Assembly: GCF_009177065.1 (NCBI RefSeq)
Contig: NZ_WEZF01000028.1
Coordinates: forward strand, 1 to 64,000
Direction of reading: 5' to 3'
From: Tautonia marina
Lineage (GTDB): Bacteria; Planctomycetota; Planctomycetia; Isosphaerales; Isosphaeraceae
DNA length: 64,000 nucleotides
Within the stretch, counting starts at the first letter, position 1, and every line of letters starts with the position of its first letter. The position numbers were made by a program, and so were the translations under genes. Of this stretch, positions 23,389 through 32,666 are shown one piece after another. Under the pieces are notes generated by a model. The model saw nothing but the letters and a program-made list of their open reading frames with translations. It was not told where the DNA came from and searched no databases.

Positions 23389-23643
23389 GGCACAAAGACC
23401 CTAGAACGCATGATGCGGGTCGACCATCACGACTCCGCCTTGCTCATCGACCTTCCCAGGAGTTCTATTATTCGGGATTGGGGCCGTCGATGCACGCCTC
23501 CCTCATGACGGAATCCTCGGCCCTGCGTCTCCAGATGAGTCTGGAACGCCCCGGATCCCAGGACTGGGTCTTCCTCCAGACGCGGACGCGGCGGATGTCT
23601 TCAGGTCAGCCGACGCGTGCTGATCCCTGCCGACTGAACAGAG

Positions 23644-24133
23644 TCCGACCTCTGAGGGAGGCCCGCCCCACCTCACGCATTGTCCGACCTCCGAGGGAGG
23701 CGATGGGAGTTTCCTGCCGGGAGCGCCTCGCAGGGGCGCCCACCCGACTATCCGACCTTTGAGGGAGGATTCCTCCTCATTGGGAACGCCTCCCCCGTCC
23801 CGAACACCCGACCTTCGAGGGAGGAATTGCGCTTCGGCAACGACCCTCGGGGGAGGATTCCAAGGCGCATCGAGGCCGCGACTTCCGACCTCTGAAGGAG
23901 GATTCTCCGGTCCGCAGTCATTCGCGCGACCGACGCAGCACCAGGAATGTCCGACCTCCGGGGGAGGATTCGTCCGACCCTTGAGGGAGGATGACCTTTG
24001 GGAGGACGACCAATGAGGGAGGCTCCTGACGACCAATGAGGGAGGGTTTCTCGACCATTGAGGGAGGATTCTCCGACCATTGAGGGAGGATTCTCCGACC
24101 ATTGAGGGAGGATTCTCCGACCATTGAGGGAGG
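23644..24133 (+). repeat. Iteron array, about 15 direct repeats of 17-18 bp
   Basis: Direct repeats of consensus TCCGACCwyTGAGGGAGG, all in the same orientation, begin at about 23644, 23683, 23751, 23807, 23840, 23884, 23950, 23973, 23991 (weak), 24006, 24028, 24051, 24072, 24094 and 24116. Spacing is irregular at the left. The last five to six become regular at about 22 bp, two DNA turns, with the linker GATTCT shared. An AT-rich stretch and a RepA gene follow immediately, the standard order of an iteron-controlled plasmid origin. The repeats are presumed RepA binding sites. Overlapping open frames here only translate the repeats and are not genes. Confidence 0.9.
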
Positions 24134-24226
24134 AAATTTGCCATAAGTCATTGTGGCGTATAGGCTATTTTTCGGGTAACTCTTATAACTCTTTAACTGG
24201 TGTAACTGAGTAACTAGAAGTTGCTG
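24134..24226 (+). other. AT-rich stretch with five TAACT repeats, candidate duplex-unwinding element of the origin
   Basis: Between the last iteron and repA the composition drops sharply. TAACT occurs at 24177, 24186, 24194, 24203 and 24211, with 8-9 bp spacing. Short AT-rich direct repeats next to initiator sites are typical of origin unwinding elements in oriC and iteron plasmids. I see no good DnaA box (TTATCCACA-like) in the stretch. Function as the melting site is inferred from position and composition. Confidence 0.65.
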
Positions 24227-24246
24227 TCTCCGAATTGATTCGGAGA
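24227..24246 (+). promoter_or_regulatory. Inverted repeat upstream of repA, candidate RepA operator
   Basis: A perfect 9-bp inverted repeat, TCTCCGAAT-TG-ATTCGGAGA, ends 18 bp before the repA ATG. Its outer part TCTCCGA also begins the iterons (TTCTCCGACC). In iteron plasmids such as pSC101 and pPS10, Rep dimers bind an inverted repeat that resembles iteron halves and repress rep. The same role is inferred here. Confidence 0.6.
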
Positions 24247-24264
24247 AAAGAAGGGGGCCAGGCG

Positions 24265-25701
24265 ATGCGCGACGAGGCGCCGGAGGAGCAGATCGAGGCA
24301 GTGCTCCAGGACCGGGGGACGGGAGGGCGCGATGAGATGAATATCGCCGAGTTCCCGATCACGCTCCTGGCCGACCGCGCGCCGAGGGGCCAGCGGCGGA
24401 TCGAGTATTCCGACCGCATCTTCGACCCGGGGACGAACCGGGAAATCGATCGCCGGCTGGTCATCAGTGCGCCGGAGGAGTACGGCCTGCCAACGGCGAT
24501 CGACGACGACGTGATCCTGGCCCTGATCCAGCTCACCCGACGCCAGAACGGCTTTGCCAAGCCGGAGGTCCACTTCACGAGGCTGCAGCTGATCGACCTG
24601 CTCGGATGGCCCGACAAGGGGAGGAGTTACGACCGGATCACCGCCTCGCTCGACCGATGGGCGAGTACGTATTTGAAGTATGAGAACGCCTGGTGGGACA
24701 ACGAGGGACGGCGCTGGACGAGCGGCGGCTTCCACATCATCGACAGCTACAAGCTCGGCGATGGCCGGGCCCCTGGGGGGCGGGCCTCGCGGTGCCGGGT
24801 GGTCTGGGGTCGAGAATTCTTCAAGAGTTGCCAGGCCGGTTATCTCAAGGGGCTTGACTACGACCTGTACATCCGGCTCACCAGTCACCCGGCGCGGCGG
24901 ATGTACCGCTTCCTGGACAAGCGGTTCTATCACAAGTCGGAGTGGGAGTTTGAGCTCAAGGACTTCGCCTTCGAGCACGTGGGCCTGAGCCGGACCTACC
25001 GCGATGCGGGCAAGATCAAGGAGAAGCTGCGGCGGGGGATCGAGGAGCTGGAGCAGGTGGGCTTTTTGGAGCCCTTGCCGCCAGACGAGCGGTTTCTCAA
25101 GCAAGGGCGCCGGTGGCTGATCCGCATGGCCCGAGCCCGCGAGGAGGCGATCGCTGTCCCTCCCCCGGAGGTCGGAGCCGATCCGGTGGTCCAGCACTTG
25201 ATCGACCGCGGCGTGTCGGCGGCGACGGCGGTCGAACTGGCCGCGACGTATTCGGCCGAGGCCATTGCCCGGCAGATCGAGGCATTCGACTGGCTCGTGG
25301 CGCGCGAGGACCGTCGCATTCGCCTGAGTCCGGCGGGATATCTGGTCGAGGCGATCCGGAAGGACTACGCCTTACCTCGCGGTTTTGCCACCAAGGCTGA
25401 TCGGGAGGCCAAGCGTCGGGAGGCCGAGGACCTGTTCAGCCAGGCCCATCAGGATCGCCTTCGGGAGCGCGAGCGAGCCTCGCAGGAGCGGGCCGCCCGT
25501 CAGGCGATCGACCGGTTTTGGGAGGAACTGGGGGCCGACGAACGCGCCCGGATCGACGAGCAGGCCCTCGCCGCGGCCGAGGCCGAGGTGGCGGATGCCT
25601 ATCAGGCCATGACCCCCGCCTCGCTGCGTGCGGTGTTCTTCCGGGACACCATTCGCGAGCCCTACTTGCGGAGCCTGCTGGCGGATCGGGTATCATCATG
25701 A
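24265..25701 (+). CDS. repA: Plasmid replication initiator protein A (RPA family)
   Basis: Initiator that would bind the upstream iterons and open the origin. From ATG 24265 the protein is 478 aa; this start has AAGGGGG about 8 bases upstream, while the in-frame TTG at 24235 lies inside the inverted repeat. The N-terminal half matches the RPA-type initiator: FPITLLADRAPRGQRRIEYSD, LVISAPEEYGLPTAIDDDVILALIQL (winged-helix) and SHPARRMYRFLDKRFY with FAFEHVGLSRTY. The C-terminal half has helices ending with FDWLVAREDRRIRLSPAGYLVEAI, also typical of plasmid RepA, and then a charged coiled region. Autorepression via the inverted repeat is likely. Confidence 0.88.
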   Translation: MRDEAPEEQIEAVLQDRGTGGRDEMNIAEFPITLLADRAPRGQRRIEYSDRIFDPGTNREIDRRLVISAPEEYGLPTAIDDDVILALIQLTRRQNGFAKPEVHFTRLQLIDLLGWPDKGRSYDRITASLDRWASTYLKYENAWWDNEGRRWTSGGFHIIDSYKLGDGRAPGGRASRCRVVWGREFFKSCQAGYLKGLDYDLYIRLTSHPARRMYRFLDKRFYHKSEWEFELKDFAFEHVGLSRTYRDAGKIKEKLRRGIEELEQVGFLEPLPPDERFLKQGRRWLIRMARAREEAIAVPPPEVGADPVVQHLIDRGVSAATAVELAATYSAEAIARQIEAFDWLVAREDRRIRLSPAGYLVEAIRKDYALPRGFATKADREAKRREAEDLFSQAHQDRLRERERASQERAARQAIDRFWEELGADERARIDEQALAAAEAEVADAYQAMTPASLRAVFFRDTIREPYLRSLLADRVSS

Positions 25702-28677: not shown

Positions 28678-28938
28678 ATGGCGACGATGACGATTTCGCT
28701 CCCGGATGAGGACAAGGCGTTCCTCGAGCAGGAGGCGGCCCGCAGGGGCTTCACGAGCGTCGCGGCGTACATGGGCGCCCTGATCCGGGAAGACCGCAAG
28801 CGCCAGGAAACTCGGAGGCGGGTCGATGACCTGCTCCTCGAAGGGCTCGATTCCGGGCCGGCCACGCCGATGACCCGGCACGACTGGGACGCGATCCGGC
28901 ACGAGGTCCATCGCCGCGATGCCGAACGGCGGGGATGA
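28678..28938 (+). CDS. ParD/CopG-like ribbon-helix-helix antitoxin
   Basis: 86-residue protein. The N-terminal strand TMTISLPDED and helix AFLEQEAARRGFTSVAAYMGALIRED are those of ParD-type ribbon-helix-helix antitoxins. The C-terminal half (about residues 45-86) is charged and would wrap the toxin. A strong AAGGAGG lies 7 bases before the ATG. The toxin gene follows after 4 bp. Such antitoxins neutralise the toxin and repress their own operon. Location between rep and par genes fits a plasmid addiction module. Confidence 0.85.
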   Translation: MATMTISLPDEDKAFLEQEAARRGFTSVAAYMGALIREDRKRQETRRRVDDLLLEGLDSGPATPMTRHDWDAIRHEVHRRDAERRG

Positions 28939-28942
28939 TCCG

Positions 28943-29278
28943 ATGGCAGGAAACCCGCCGAAGGTCGAGCGGAGGCCCGAGGCGGTCCGCGACGTGATCG
29001 AGGCTGCCGACTTCATCGCCCGCCGCACGAGCCTGGCCGCCGCCGATCGCTTCCTCGCCGCGGTTGAGGCGACGGCCGATCGGCTGGCCAGGATGCCCGG
29101 ACTCGGAGCCCGCTGGGAGAGCGATCACCCTCGCCTGGCCGACCTCCGCGTTGCCTCCGTCTCCCGGTTTCGCAAGCACCTGATCTTTGACCGAGCGACT
29201 CCCGACGGGATTGAACTGGTCCGCGTCCTGCACGTCGCCCGCGACCTCGATCGCCTCCTCGACTCCGAGTCCCCGTAG
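28943..29278 (+). CDS. ParE/RelE-family toxin
   Basis: 111-residue protein from ATG 28943; an alternative ATG at 28919 would overlap the antitoxin by 20 bases. VERRPEAVRDVIEAADFIARRTS is the N-terminal helix pair. RLARMPGLGARWES and LRVASVSRFRKHLIFDRATPDGIELVRVLHVARDLDRLL carry the conserved beta-sheet and C-terminal Arg-Val-x-His-x-x-Arg-Asp segment of ParE/RelE. ParE toxins act on DNA gyrase and RelE toxins on mRNA; sequence alone favours ParE because of the ParD-like partner. Complete, with no sign of inactivation. Confidence 0.83.
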   Translation: MAGNPPKVERRPEAVRDVIEAADFIARRTSLAAADRFLAAVEATADRLARMPGLGARWESDHPRLADLRVASVSRFRKHLIFDRATPDGIELVRVLHVARDLDRLLDSESP

Positions 29279-29687: not shown

Positions 29688-30660
29688 GATCACCGGGTGA
29701 TCACCCCGGTCGGGTCCGATCCGGTCGGACCTCCACCCGCGAGCCGTCGGAGGCGGAGACCGACCGCGTGATCACGCGGGAATCATGCCGGTCGCGAGAT
29801 GCGTTTCGACTTGACTTGCGCCCGGTCACAGAGGGCGTGATCACCGGGTGATCCCGCCCCGATCCCTGGTGTCCCGGGCGAGCAATCCCTCGTTGGTCGG
29901 ACCTCCTGGGAATGCGCGGGTGATCGCCGGGGACCAGGAGACGATTCCGCGCCGGACGGTGTTCAGAACGCCCGGCGATTGGCCTTGAGGCAGGGAGGTG
30001 ATCACCCGGTGATCAGACCACCCATCGTTCTTCGGAACCTCGCCGGACGGGCAGGATGATCACCGGTTAATGGGAGGGCCGAGGAGGCCGATCGGCGGGG
30101 GAGAGTCCCGGAGGATGGGCGGGCGGGCAGGACGTTGCCGGCGGGCGGACGAGCCGGAGTGATCACCCGGTGATCAGGGGCGATTGAGGTCGCAATCCGG
30201 CCATGCCCCGATCACCGGACGGGTGGGGTGATCACCCGGTGATCGGCCGAAGGGTTTGGTCCACGCGAACGGCCTCGCCGGCCGAATGATCGCAGGGGGA
30301 TGGATGAGCTGGCAGGTGGACCATGGTCGAGCGAGAAGCCTCGGTGATCACCCGGTGATCAGGGGCGATCGGGGCACGATTCGGCCCACGAAGGAGGGGG
30401 CCGACCACCGGAGCGGCGACGGGGTGATCACCCGGTGATCACGCCCTGAGCAAGCCTCGGAGCGAGGTCGAATGCGAGGCGAAGGCCCCAGTCGGACGAC
30501 AGGGGAATCGAGCGTCAGAACGGGGGCGCAGCGGCCGGTCGTTCGGAGGGGTGATCACCCGGTGATCGGGGCGGATCCGGACTCTGTTCGGAGGAGCGAG
30601 CAGGGGGGGGAGGCCGACGGTCGTCGAGGCGGTTCGGGCCGGGGTGATCACCGTGTGATC
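29688..30660 (+). repeat. Array of nine 15-bp palindromes, candidate parS centromere
   Basis: Eight perfect copies of GATCACC-(G/C)-GGTGATC lie at 29688, 29839, 30000, 30161, 30230, 30346, 30426 and 30553, and one variant with a single change (GATCACCGTGTGATC) at 30646. Weaker partial copies occur near 29767, 29921, 30058 and 30210. Arms are 7 bp around one base. Spacings are 69-161 bp. The array fills the otherwise gene-free kilobase before parA, so it is most likely the ParB-binding centromere and may also regulate parAB. Each site contains two GATC tetramers. It does not match the canonical chromosomal parS (TGTTTCACGTGAAACA). From 29279 to 29687 I see nothing else. Confidence 0.85.
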
Positions 30661-30681
30661 GCGCCTCGGGAGAAGGACTTC

Positions 30682-31575
30682 ATGAGCAGCGCGGCGACGG
30701 TCGATACCAACTCCGGAAACCCGAGCAAGGCAAAGGAGCACATGATGGCCATTGTGGCGATGGTGAATCAGAAGGGGGGCGTGGGCAAGTCGAGCACGAC
30801 GATGCACCTGGGAGGGGCCCTGGCCCGGCGCGGGCTCCGGGTCCTGGTGGTCGACAATGATGCTCAGGCGAGTCTGACCAAGGGCCTGCTCGGCGACGAA
30901 CCGGCGCGGGCCCTCGACCCGGTCACGACGGTCTATGCCCTGTATGCCGGGATCCCGACACCGGAAGACCTGCTCGTTCGCGCAACCGACTTTGATGGCC
31001 TGGCCCTGCTGGCCGGGTCGCCGGCGTCGATCAGCTTCAACGTGCCGGACCCGCACCTGATCGACCCCCGGGAACAGGCCGTCTTGCGCGACGCCCTGCG
31101 GCCGATCGCCGAAGGGTTCGACGTGACGCTGATCGACTGCTGCCCGAATCTCCAGCGGGCGACCTGGTCGGCCTTGCTCGCGGCCGATGCGGCCCTGATC
31201 CCGACCATGCCCGAGCTGTTTGGAGCGCAGGGGCTGGCCGAGGTCCGCGACTGGGTCGCCCTGGTCGAGCAGACCTGGGGCCGGTCGCTCCCGATCGCCG
31301 GGGTCCTGGTCACGATGTTCAACGGCCGCCGGGCGATGCACCGGACGTTTGCCGAACTGCTGGCCGACGGCTGCCCCGAACTGTTCGAGGCGACCGTGCC
31401 CGAGTCGGCCGACTTCCCGGAGGCGATCGCCGCCGGCAAGCCGATCCACTACCACAAAGCCCGCGGAGCGGCGGCCAGGGCCATCGACGCCGTGGCCAAT
31501 GAACTGCTCACGCGGCTGGCCGATCTGGGCCTTCGGACGGATGAGTCGGACGACACGTCGAGGGAGGCCGCCTGA
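30682..31575 (+). CDS. parA: ParA-type partition ATPase (Walker-type, deviant P-loop)
   Basis: 297-residue ATPase that would move ParB-bound DNA over the nucleoid. The deviant Walker A VNQKGGVGKSS is at about residues 28-38, with the signature Lys31. A' is LVVDNDAQASLTKG. Walker B is VTLIDCCPNLQRAT near residue 150, with Cys-Cys in place of the more usual acidic/Pro residues. GAQGLAEVRDWV and later segments match type Ia/Ib plasmid ParA without an N-terminal HTH. ATG 30682 has GGGAGAAGGA upstream; ATG 30742 is also possible. The last parS-like site lies 21 bp before the start. Translationally coupled to parB. Confidence 0.9.
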   Translation: MSSAATVDTNSGNPSKAKEHMMAIVAMVNQKGGVGKSSTTMHLGGALARRGLRVLVVDNDAQASLTKGLLGDEPARALDPVTTVYALYAGIPTPEDLLVRATDFDGLALLAGSPASISFNVPDPHLIDPREQAVLRDALRPIAEGFDVTLIDCCPNLQRATWSALLAADAALIPTMPELFGAQGLAEVRDWVALVEQTWGRSLPIAGVLVTMFNGRRAMHRTFAELLADGCPELFEATVPESADFPEAIAAGKPIHYHKARGAAARAIDAVANELLTRLADLGLRTDESDDTSREAA

Positions 31576-32666
31576 TGAGCGCCGAGCCATCGAAGGCCGA
31601 CAAGGCCAAGGAAAAGACGCTGGCGAAATACGGGGCGTCGATGAAGTCGAGCCTCGGCTTCAACCGGACCCCCGGCACGCCGGCCGGCATGGCTCCGCCG
31701 AGTGGGGCCGTCGGTGCCCGGATGACCGGGGTGATCAACGACCGGGAAGCGGCGGTCATCGGGGTTGATCGGATCGTCTCCGACCCCGACCAGCCGCGCC
31801 GCGAGTTCGACGACGAGGCACTCGATCGGTTGGCGTCCTCCCTCAAAGGTCGGGGCCAGCTTCAGAACGTCGTCGTCTACTGGTCGGACGATCTCGGGTC
31901 GTATGTGCTTGTCTCCGGCGAGCGCCGGTGGCGCGCTGCCCGGCGGGCAGGGTTGACGACCCTGCGATGCAAGATCCTCGACCGCAAGCCGGACGACTCG
32001 GATCGTCTGTCGATTCAGCTGGTCGAGAATTGTGTGCGCGAGGATCTGCGGCCGGTCGAGCAGGCGGCGGCCTTCCGGGCCTTGATGGAGGCCAACGGCT
32101 GGAGCACCCGGGACCTGGCCGAGGCCCTGCACATGGCCCAGGCGAAGGTTGTCTACGCGCTTGGTTTACTCGACCTGCCGGACGATCTCCGCGATCGGGT
32201 CGACCAGGGGGAGCTTGCCCCTCGAACTGCCTACGAGATCGGTCGTCTCGACCGTCCCGAAGACCAGCGCGCCCTGGCCGATCGGGTCGCCTCCGAAGGC
32301 TTGACCCGGGACGAGGTCGTCGCCGAGGTTCGAGCGGCTCGGGAGGTTGCCGAGGAGGTCTCGGAAAATCGGACCTCCGGCAAAGGCAAGACCAAGGGCA
32401 AGGGCAGGGGGGGAGCGTCCTCCCGTTCCAGGGGCAAGGCGGCGCCCCGCTTGCCGACCGCGAAGGTCTTCCGCGTCCCCGGGGGAGGAAAGGTGACGCT
32501 CGAAAAGGCGCGCGGCCTCGACGCTGAGAGCTACCGCGCCGCGGCTCGACTGTTGCTCGATCACGCCGATCGGATCGATCCGCGTTCCGAGCGACCCGAT
32601 TCGGCAACCGGCTCGGAGCCTCAGCCCGAAAGCACTCTTGAAACGCAACCTGATGTGGCGGCCTGA
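31575..32666 (+). CDS. parB: ParB-type partition protein (CTPase/DNA clamp)
   Basis: 363-residue ParB. The N-terminal ParB/Srx domain has PDQPRREFDDEALDRLASSL, LVSGERRWRAARRAGL (CTP-binding GERRxRA) and LIQLVEN-like LSIQLVENCVREDLRPVEQA (about residues 60-175). The HTH region is WSTRDLAEALHMAQAKVVYALGLLDLPDDL. A Lys/Gly/Arg-rich linker (about 265-295) precedes a poorly conserved C-terminal dimer region. The start overlaps the parA stop (TGATG). It presumably binds the upstream palindromes; the recognition sequence differs from chromosomal parS, so its HTH should have diverged accordingly. Confidence 0.9.
   Translation: MSAEPSKADKAKEKTLAKYGASMKSSLGFNRTPGTPAGMAPPSGAVGARMTGVINDREAAVIGVDRIVSDPDQPRREFDDEALDRLASSLKGRGQLQNVVVYWSDDLGSYVLVSGERRWRAARRAGLTTLRCKILDRKPDDSDRLSIQLVENCVREDLRPVEQAAAFRALMEANGWSTRDLAEALHMAQAKVVYALGLLDLPDDLRDRVDQGELAPRTAYEIGRLDRPEDQRALADRVASEGLTRDEVVAEVRAAREVAEEVSENRTSGKGKTKGKGRGGASSRSRGKAAPRLPTAKVFRVPGGGKVTLEKARGLDAESYRAAARLLLDHADRIDPRSERPDSATGSEPQPESTLETQPDVAA

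Follow-up and report, generated by a model that had tools for sequence, protein, structure and literature searches.

A probable iteron-type plasmid origin in a Tautonia-like planctomycete, with an inverted iteron copy inside its RPA-family initiator gene

The stretch of DNA analysed here (the window, 64,000 nucleotides) most likely contains the origin of replication of a large planctomycete plasmid, with a layout resembling the origins of classic iteron plasmids, and its repA gene carries an inverted copy of an array iteron. This intragenic iteron is the main new point. From sequence comparison we consider it fairly probable that the region combines a partition-equipped plasmid origin with a repA leader, that the inverted repeat in that leader is not an operator and that the intragenic iteron is the candidate for control. 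The window is the first 64,000 bases of a contig of 97,115 bp, which belongs to an assembly of 7.07 Mb and 80 contigs. The contig appears to be a plasmid of a Tautonia-like member of the Isosphaeraceae, because it carries the plasmid partition ATPase gene parA (30472..31575, plus strand) and parB (31575..32666, plus strand) and because its relatives reside on complete plasmids, ten such named planctomycete records having been found. Tautonia sociabilis is the closest named relative for the replicon (86% over RepA) among the best 80 of 163 matches.

The repA gene (24265..25701, plus strand) encodes an RPA-family replication initiator of 478 residues, as defined by profile, fold and start-site comparison. 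Its start was placed at ATG 24265 in preference to the mechanically called TTG 24235 because GAAGGGGG (24250..24257, plus strand), the likely ribosome-binding site, precedes the ATG and because this start gives the distance to the RDEMN motif that is usual in relatives. The protein scores 64.8 bits against the RPA profile PF10134 (cut-off 27), bearing out the RPA-family initiator that the preliminary description had placed behind the iterons, and 19.3 bits against the TrfA profile PF07042, below the curated cut-off of 22. A sequence search of solved structures returned merely two insignificant Cas3 matches. The predicted model (pLDDT 89) found its best fold match among solved structures in domains 2-3 of RctB (E 2.5e-10, TM-score 0.56 over the target), with further matches to RepE54 (E 3.8e-5, TM-score 0.64 over the target), the pi-iteron complex (E 4.5e-3) and the RepE-operator complex (E 5.2e-3). 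RepA is predicted to be a winged-helix initiator with a fold like that of RctB, RepE and pi.

The assembly holds four further RPA genes, three of which (contigs C31, C33 and C34) are accompanied by their own, different iteron arrays and by a ParA match on each contig. The assembly's fifth RPA gene, L001 (G000:C17), is a canonical member of PF10134 (295.8 bits) and lies convergent with a ParA-like gene near GCAAACA repeats. It represents a different replicon lineage, which may have been acquired recently or may belong to a contig of foreign origin. Near the origin, positions 28678-29278 contain an 86-aa ORF without a Pfam match and then a ParE-type toxin gene, likely a toxin-antitoxin pair. The GC skew of the window climbs rightward of the origin, on a contig that is open. 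RPA genes were also observed on contigs of megabase size: L151 (G040:C1:2003800-2005200), with a 477-aa frame, phased iterons and TAAC repeats, on an 8.67-Mb contig that is apparently a chromosome, L068/L133 on a 4.8-Mb contig and L054 on a 6.2-Mb contig; these may be integrated plasmids or extra origins.

Relatives were gathered from 84,980 species genomes (best 80 of 163 matches used), and further loci came from ten plasmid records and 45 family genomes (31 with a match, of which the orthologs alone were used). The automatic repeat finder gave results for 90 loci, and 77 were kept for the spacing count; the 13 dropped comprised L076, seven loci that on inspection by eye were near-duplicates, and another five (L036, L037, L054, L056 and L078) in which no clear array adjoins repA. 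One member of each near-duplicate pair or trio was kept, except for L076/L077, both of which were left out, and L014 and L106 were counted as one locus. Too little upstream DNA was present for L029, L055 and L064; L102 had none and was never used; and L094, L096 and L099, at first without an anchor, were re-anchored. The analysis of dyad arm distances and mismatches covered 81 loci, six of which had no dyad or a weak one (the window, L039, L063, L068, L073 and L098), and the scans of gap 7-mers, of dyads against iterons and of repA coding sequence covered 74 loci; the dyad, 7-mer and intragenic scans also omit both pSINAC01 copies (L067, L103). The support for the stem-loops and for the intragenic site comes from four orthologs, all of one genus: the window, G041, T. 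sociabilis (L014) and G040:C6, whose RepA proteins are 84-93% identical and whose iterons are all of one type. The leader fold of L134 ends before stem-loop 2 and gives nothing on it.

Repeat finding delimited an iteron array of 14 direct copies with the consensus NCGACCNNNGRGGGAGG (23645..24134, plus strand). The copies start (CGACC) at 23646, 23685, 23753, 23809, 23841, 23886, 23952, 23975, 24007, 24030, 24052, 24074, 24096 and 24118, giving successive spacings of 39, 68, 56, 32, 45, 66, 23, 32, 23, 22, 22, 22 and 22 bp, and the proximal five (24030..24134, plus strand) are in exact 22-bp phase. The preliminary description rightly took the last four copies for the end of the array, but it listed those alone, and in their proper register (24052, 24074, 24096, 24118) they are spaced by exactly 22 bp, the 21 bp that it gave being a register slip. 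The helical phasing that it had proposed holds for the window and is general over the 77 loci. When four periods were tried on the 14 positions in the window, the vector strength was highest at 11.0 bp (0.80); at 10.5 bp it was 0.18. Of 424 iteron spacings in the 77 loci, 287 are in phase (170 at 22-23 bp, 71 at 32-34, 26 at 43-47 and 20 at 54-57), with 2 at 25-30 bp, 4 at 36-41 and 8 at 48-52 off phase and the remainder at other, mostly longer, distances. The 192 spacings of 28-100 bp gave a vector strength of 0.55 at periods of 11.3-11.7 bp and 0.42 at 10.5 bp (null maximum 0.25). The array and its phasing are far beyond chance. Half a helical turn between two iterons is described in a review as abolishing cooperative Rep binding (PMC4980987). 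The iteron consensus has the form CG-N6-[CG][AG]G in 54 of 75 loci. As in class A theta iteron replicons, direct iterons of about 17-22 bp adjoin an AT-rich region and a rep gene, the iterons are spaced by whole helical turns, and the Rep protein has a winged-helix fold, the last as seen in a predicted model and fold search only.

Several further elements lie between the array and repA. A GCCATAAGTC box adjoins the last iteron (24140..24149, plus strand), and 38 of 74 related loci have TAA[GC]T within the 45 nt that follow their array (shuffle mean 6.0). It is followed by an AT-rich region of TAACTCTT repeats, the probable DNA unwinding element (DUE; 24156..24207, plus strand), in which 48 of 52 columns are invariant across the four orthologs; at least two TAAC words occur in 35 of the 74 array-to-repA gaps (10.9 in shuffles). 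Stem-loop 1, GTAACTAGAAGTTGC (24210..24224, plus strand), has 10 of 15 columns invariant in the same orthologs and is the probable local version of an AACAACA...TGTTGTT dyad that precedes many related repA genes. The shared order is thus iterons, TAAGTC box, TAACTCTT unwinding repeats, AACAACA...TGTTGTT dyad and repA, with parts missing from some loci. A promoter and terminator scan of 23600-24400 found none, including no sigma-70-type promoter, and an Rfam search of the same interval gave 0 matches at E<=1.

After stem-loop 1 comes an inverted repeat with 9-bp arms and a 2-nt centre, TCTCCGAAT-TG-ATTCGGAGA (24227..24246, plus strand), which as RNA would form 8 bp with a 4-nt loop. The 20-bp repeat of the preliminary description is therefore real, and was there interpreted as an operator for RepA dimers carrying a TCTCCGA half-site in common with the iterons, after the logic of pSC101-type plasmids. 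We regard this interpretation as improbable, though the repeat does end 18 nt before the start codon and the fold search with RepA also matched the complex of a RepE dimer with its operator. The 64-kb window holds three perfect dyads with arms of at least 9 and loops of 0-4 (2.7 on average in shuffles), so the repeat is unremarkable except for its place. The heptamer is indeed present in linker plus iteron, but in only 3 of the 14 copies (24070, 24092, 24114), where it is mostly linker, and compared with single iterons (20-21 nt) the repeat has common words of just 4-6 nt. A 7-mer in common with the 22-bp unit is expected by chance for 1.4-2.4% of random or made palindromes and for 4.6% of real 20-mers of the window, and the sharing is not convincingly beyond chance.

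Comparison of the orthologs also disfavours the operator. The site reads TCTCCGAATTGATTCGGAGA in the window, TCTCCGAATTGATTCAGAGA in G041, CCTTCGACGATTGTCGGAGT in T. sociabilis and CCTTTGACACTTGTCATGGG in G040; one arm is mutated in G041 (RepA 93% identical), and in G040:C6 (RepA 84% identical) the half-site is absent from a homologous repA locus, even though iterons and RepA are conserved. Just 7 of its 20 columns are invariant, the lowest of the three leader parts compared, whereas an operator would be expected to vary less than its surroundings when the protein that reads it has hardly changed. A pairing of repeat and iterons such as had been expected in other RPA upstream regions is not general: a 7-letter word is shared in the window and L069 alone (2 of 74 loci), and the best dyad upstream of repA in each of the 74 loci shares words averaging 4.28 nt with its own iterons and 4.16 nt with those of other loci (p=0.56). 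Scanning the window's array-to-repA gap with its own iteron matrix gave nothing above chance (p=0.52); in T. sociabilis (L014) it is the repeat, read on the minus strand, that most resembles the locus's own iterons within the gap, at p=0.12. An operator repeat of the pSC101/F/pPS10 type, sharing iteron sequence and conserved together with the iterons, was not found, and the inverted repeat is probably not a RepA operator, although RepA may bind it weakly.

An iteron copy between array and repA was also considered as a general operator and rejected. Matches at p<=0.01 were obtained in 11 of 80 scanned loci (near-duplicates included). Six of the 11 matches (L023, L049, L069, L073, L080 and L094) start within about 15 nt of the array end and probably belong to the array, the repeat finder having overlooked them. 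Those in L052, L086 and L100 are close to the start of repA, and the latter two are weak. L028 and L039 have inverted iteron copies in the gap, 21 and 43 nt further on, lying 186 and 201 nt upstream of the RDEMN anchor; an operator-like site in these other RPA lineages is possible.

The inverted repeat is probably stem-loop 2 of a repA leader with two stem-loops, in which pairing is kept more than sequence. Over both small dyads in the four orthologs, 57 of 60 cells are paired (95%; slid controls 25-56%), the covariation score exceeds that of all 500 shuffles, and RNAalifold recovers the same two stems; five of the 15 pairs are changed on both sides, a number equalled in 38 of 500 shuffles. 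The nine non-Watson-Crick cells comprise six G.U, one A.C and two other mismatches, and this excess of G.U leans towards RNA in what is a small sample. The stability of the leader RNA is little better than that of shuffles (z -1.96 for the window, -1.29 for G041 and -0.21 for T. sociabilis), and stem-loop 2 does not form in the folded G041 leader. For the four orthologs, the stem-loop reading is likely.

Another explanation, possible but less favoured by us, is that the AACAACA...TGTTGTT dyad, represented here by stem-loop 1, is the true operator or a host-factor site and that stem-loop 2 is accidental. The most frequent 7-mers in the 74 gaps are AACAACA (41 gaps), CAACAAC (40) and GTTGTTG (32), followed by AACTCTT (18), compared with a shuffled maximum of 7 for any word. 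TGTTGTT is present in 29 of 74 gaps, with AACAACA preceding it in 22 and the opposite order in 3, and the dyad has the unwinding region on one side and the ribosome-binding site on the other. Its arms can be as little as 2 nt or more than 60 nt apart, unlike those of a dimer operator, and the window's own copy is weak. In many RPA loci this dyad, with the same range of loops, was observed between the unwinding region and repA. A sense-RNA hairpin was also considered for the family-wide dyad, and the mismatches lean against it: of 525 cells, 22 were A.C mismatches and 7 were G.U, in a search that favoured the 5' arm.

Within repA, codons 299-304 contain an inverted iteron, TCCGACCTCCGGGGGAGG on the minus strand (25158..25176), identical to the iteron at 23950-23967; the repeat search paired the latter with 25159-25176 over 18 nt at 100%. 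The site overlaps the sole internal stretch of the RepA model with confidence below 50 (residues 295-301), in a linker predicted to be disordered. It is present in all four orthologs with 0, 0, 0 and 1 mismatches to known iterons and with the full consensus in each, and both substitutions within it fall on degenerate iteron positions; the next best iteron match in the window's repA has 5 mismatches. None of its six third positions varies, a property shared by 11 of 473 six-codon windows, while the adjoining codons 295-298 vary in amino acid and codon. Conservation over all 18 nt is unexceptional, as 71 of 473 windows are equally conserved. Own iterons in repA coding sequence are not a family-wide feature over the 74 loci, and the inverted one is restricted to the replicon type of the window, a minus-strand match at p<=0.02 occurring in the window and L014 alone; plus-strand matches were found in L014, L032 and L098.

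The intragenic iteron could also be a coincidence of a conserved PPPEVG peptide encoded in GC-rich codons, an outcome to which we give a real but minor share of the probability. The sequence is GC-rich, and an iteron-identical 18-mer with the full consensus was found by consensus scan inverted in parB (31836..31853, minus strand), where it may follow from the ParB stretch SLKGRGQ. This match recurs in the closest relative (G041:C13:131558), while the other two parB genes lack it at one mismatch or fewer, so that it is kept in just two of four plasmids, and other stray full-consensus sites number one in G040:C6 and three in G042:C81 (one of them at the 3' end of repA). Outside the arrays and the intragenic site there are six more one-mismatch sites. 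Against coincidence, the 18-mer is exactly identical to an array iteron, the neighbouring linker codons vary where its own third positions do not, and a reversed-pattern control gave 3 matches at one mismatch or fewer in 427 kb. We retain the intragenic iteron as a site that may be regulatory, through handcuffing or as a roadblock, and by analogy as the best candidate for feedback control.

A mechanism may be proposed in which RepA monomers bind the iterons through their winged-helix domains and, aligned on one face of the DNA, open the AT-rich region. RepA on the intragenic iteron would then pair with the array by handcuffing or block transcription of repA, an inhibitory role suggested by analogy with Vibrio chromosome 2, whose origin is inhibited by RctB sites located in transcribed DNA. 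The two stem-loops of the leader would affect either the expression of repA or the origin DNA while it is single-stranded. A more specific version, which we advance tentatively and rate below even chances, has the intragenic inverted iteron replacing the operator: bound RepA would loop to or handcuff the array and block its own gene, transcription of repA would clear the site, so that a single element in coding sequence would tie origin control to repA expression, and the leader would add its covarying double stem-loop.

RPA-family initiators are encoded on many plasmids of Isosphaeraceae and relatives, and no description of planctomycete RPA plasmid origins was found among the literature matches listed. 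The common plan of phased iterons, TAAC unwinding repeats, AACAACA/TGTTGTT dyad and repA gives a rule for locating origins, which could aid vector building for planctomycetes. If true, the conservation of an initiator-type site within the gene for the initiator would represent an unusual form of copy-number control.

With F (RepE), pPS10 and pSC101 the window has in common a winged-helix initiator and iterons, and it differs from them in having no inverted repeat that conservedly shares iteron sequence. For pPS10, RepA dimers are described as repressing repA at an operator inverted repeat and monomers as binding the iterons, with inhibition by handcuffing (PMC4857107).

RK2 (IncP) likewise has direct iterons next to AT-rich repeats, and the window RepA weakly matches the profile of its initiator TrfA, below the curated cut-off. 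The iteron core GAGGG of the window is similar to the RK2 iteron. The window RepA nevertheless belongs to RPA and not to TrfA, and its gene lies beside the origin, whereas trfA of RK2 is located apart from oriV. The unwinding 13-mers of RK2 oriV have the reported consensus TAAACnTTnTTTT (PMC4081077), similar to TAACTCTT in the window.

The RPA plasmids of other Isosphaeraceae (for example pISOP01, pPL62-1/2/3 and PALBO1) possess the same initiator family, phased iterons and, in L094-L097 and L101, an AACAACA-type dyad with 7/7 positions paired; they differ in that iteron sequence varies with replicon type and in that the repA scan found no intragenic iteron. A comparison of Isosphaeraceae plasmids names a shared replication initiator protein A, and no origin analysis was found in the accessible part of that paper (PMC5352709). 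Iterons of 18 bp are described for secondary replicons of Deinococcus (PMC7671480).

Vibrio chromosome 2 is comparable in that RctB domains 2-3 are the best match to the predicted fold of the window RepA. Its 12-mer RctB iterons are described as head-to-tail with 10-11 bp between them (PMC6090056), and therefore advance by a step similar to that of the window, 22-23 bp. RctB sites outside its core origin, one of them overlapped by the transcribed ORF rctA, are reported to inhibit by titration and handcuffing, an inhibition that transcription across the site at rctA counteracts (PMC6090056). The inhibitory 39-mers of RctB have no sequence relation to its iterons, whereas the extra site of the window is itself an iteron and sits within the initiator gene.
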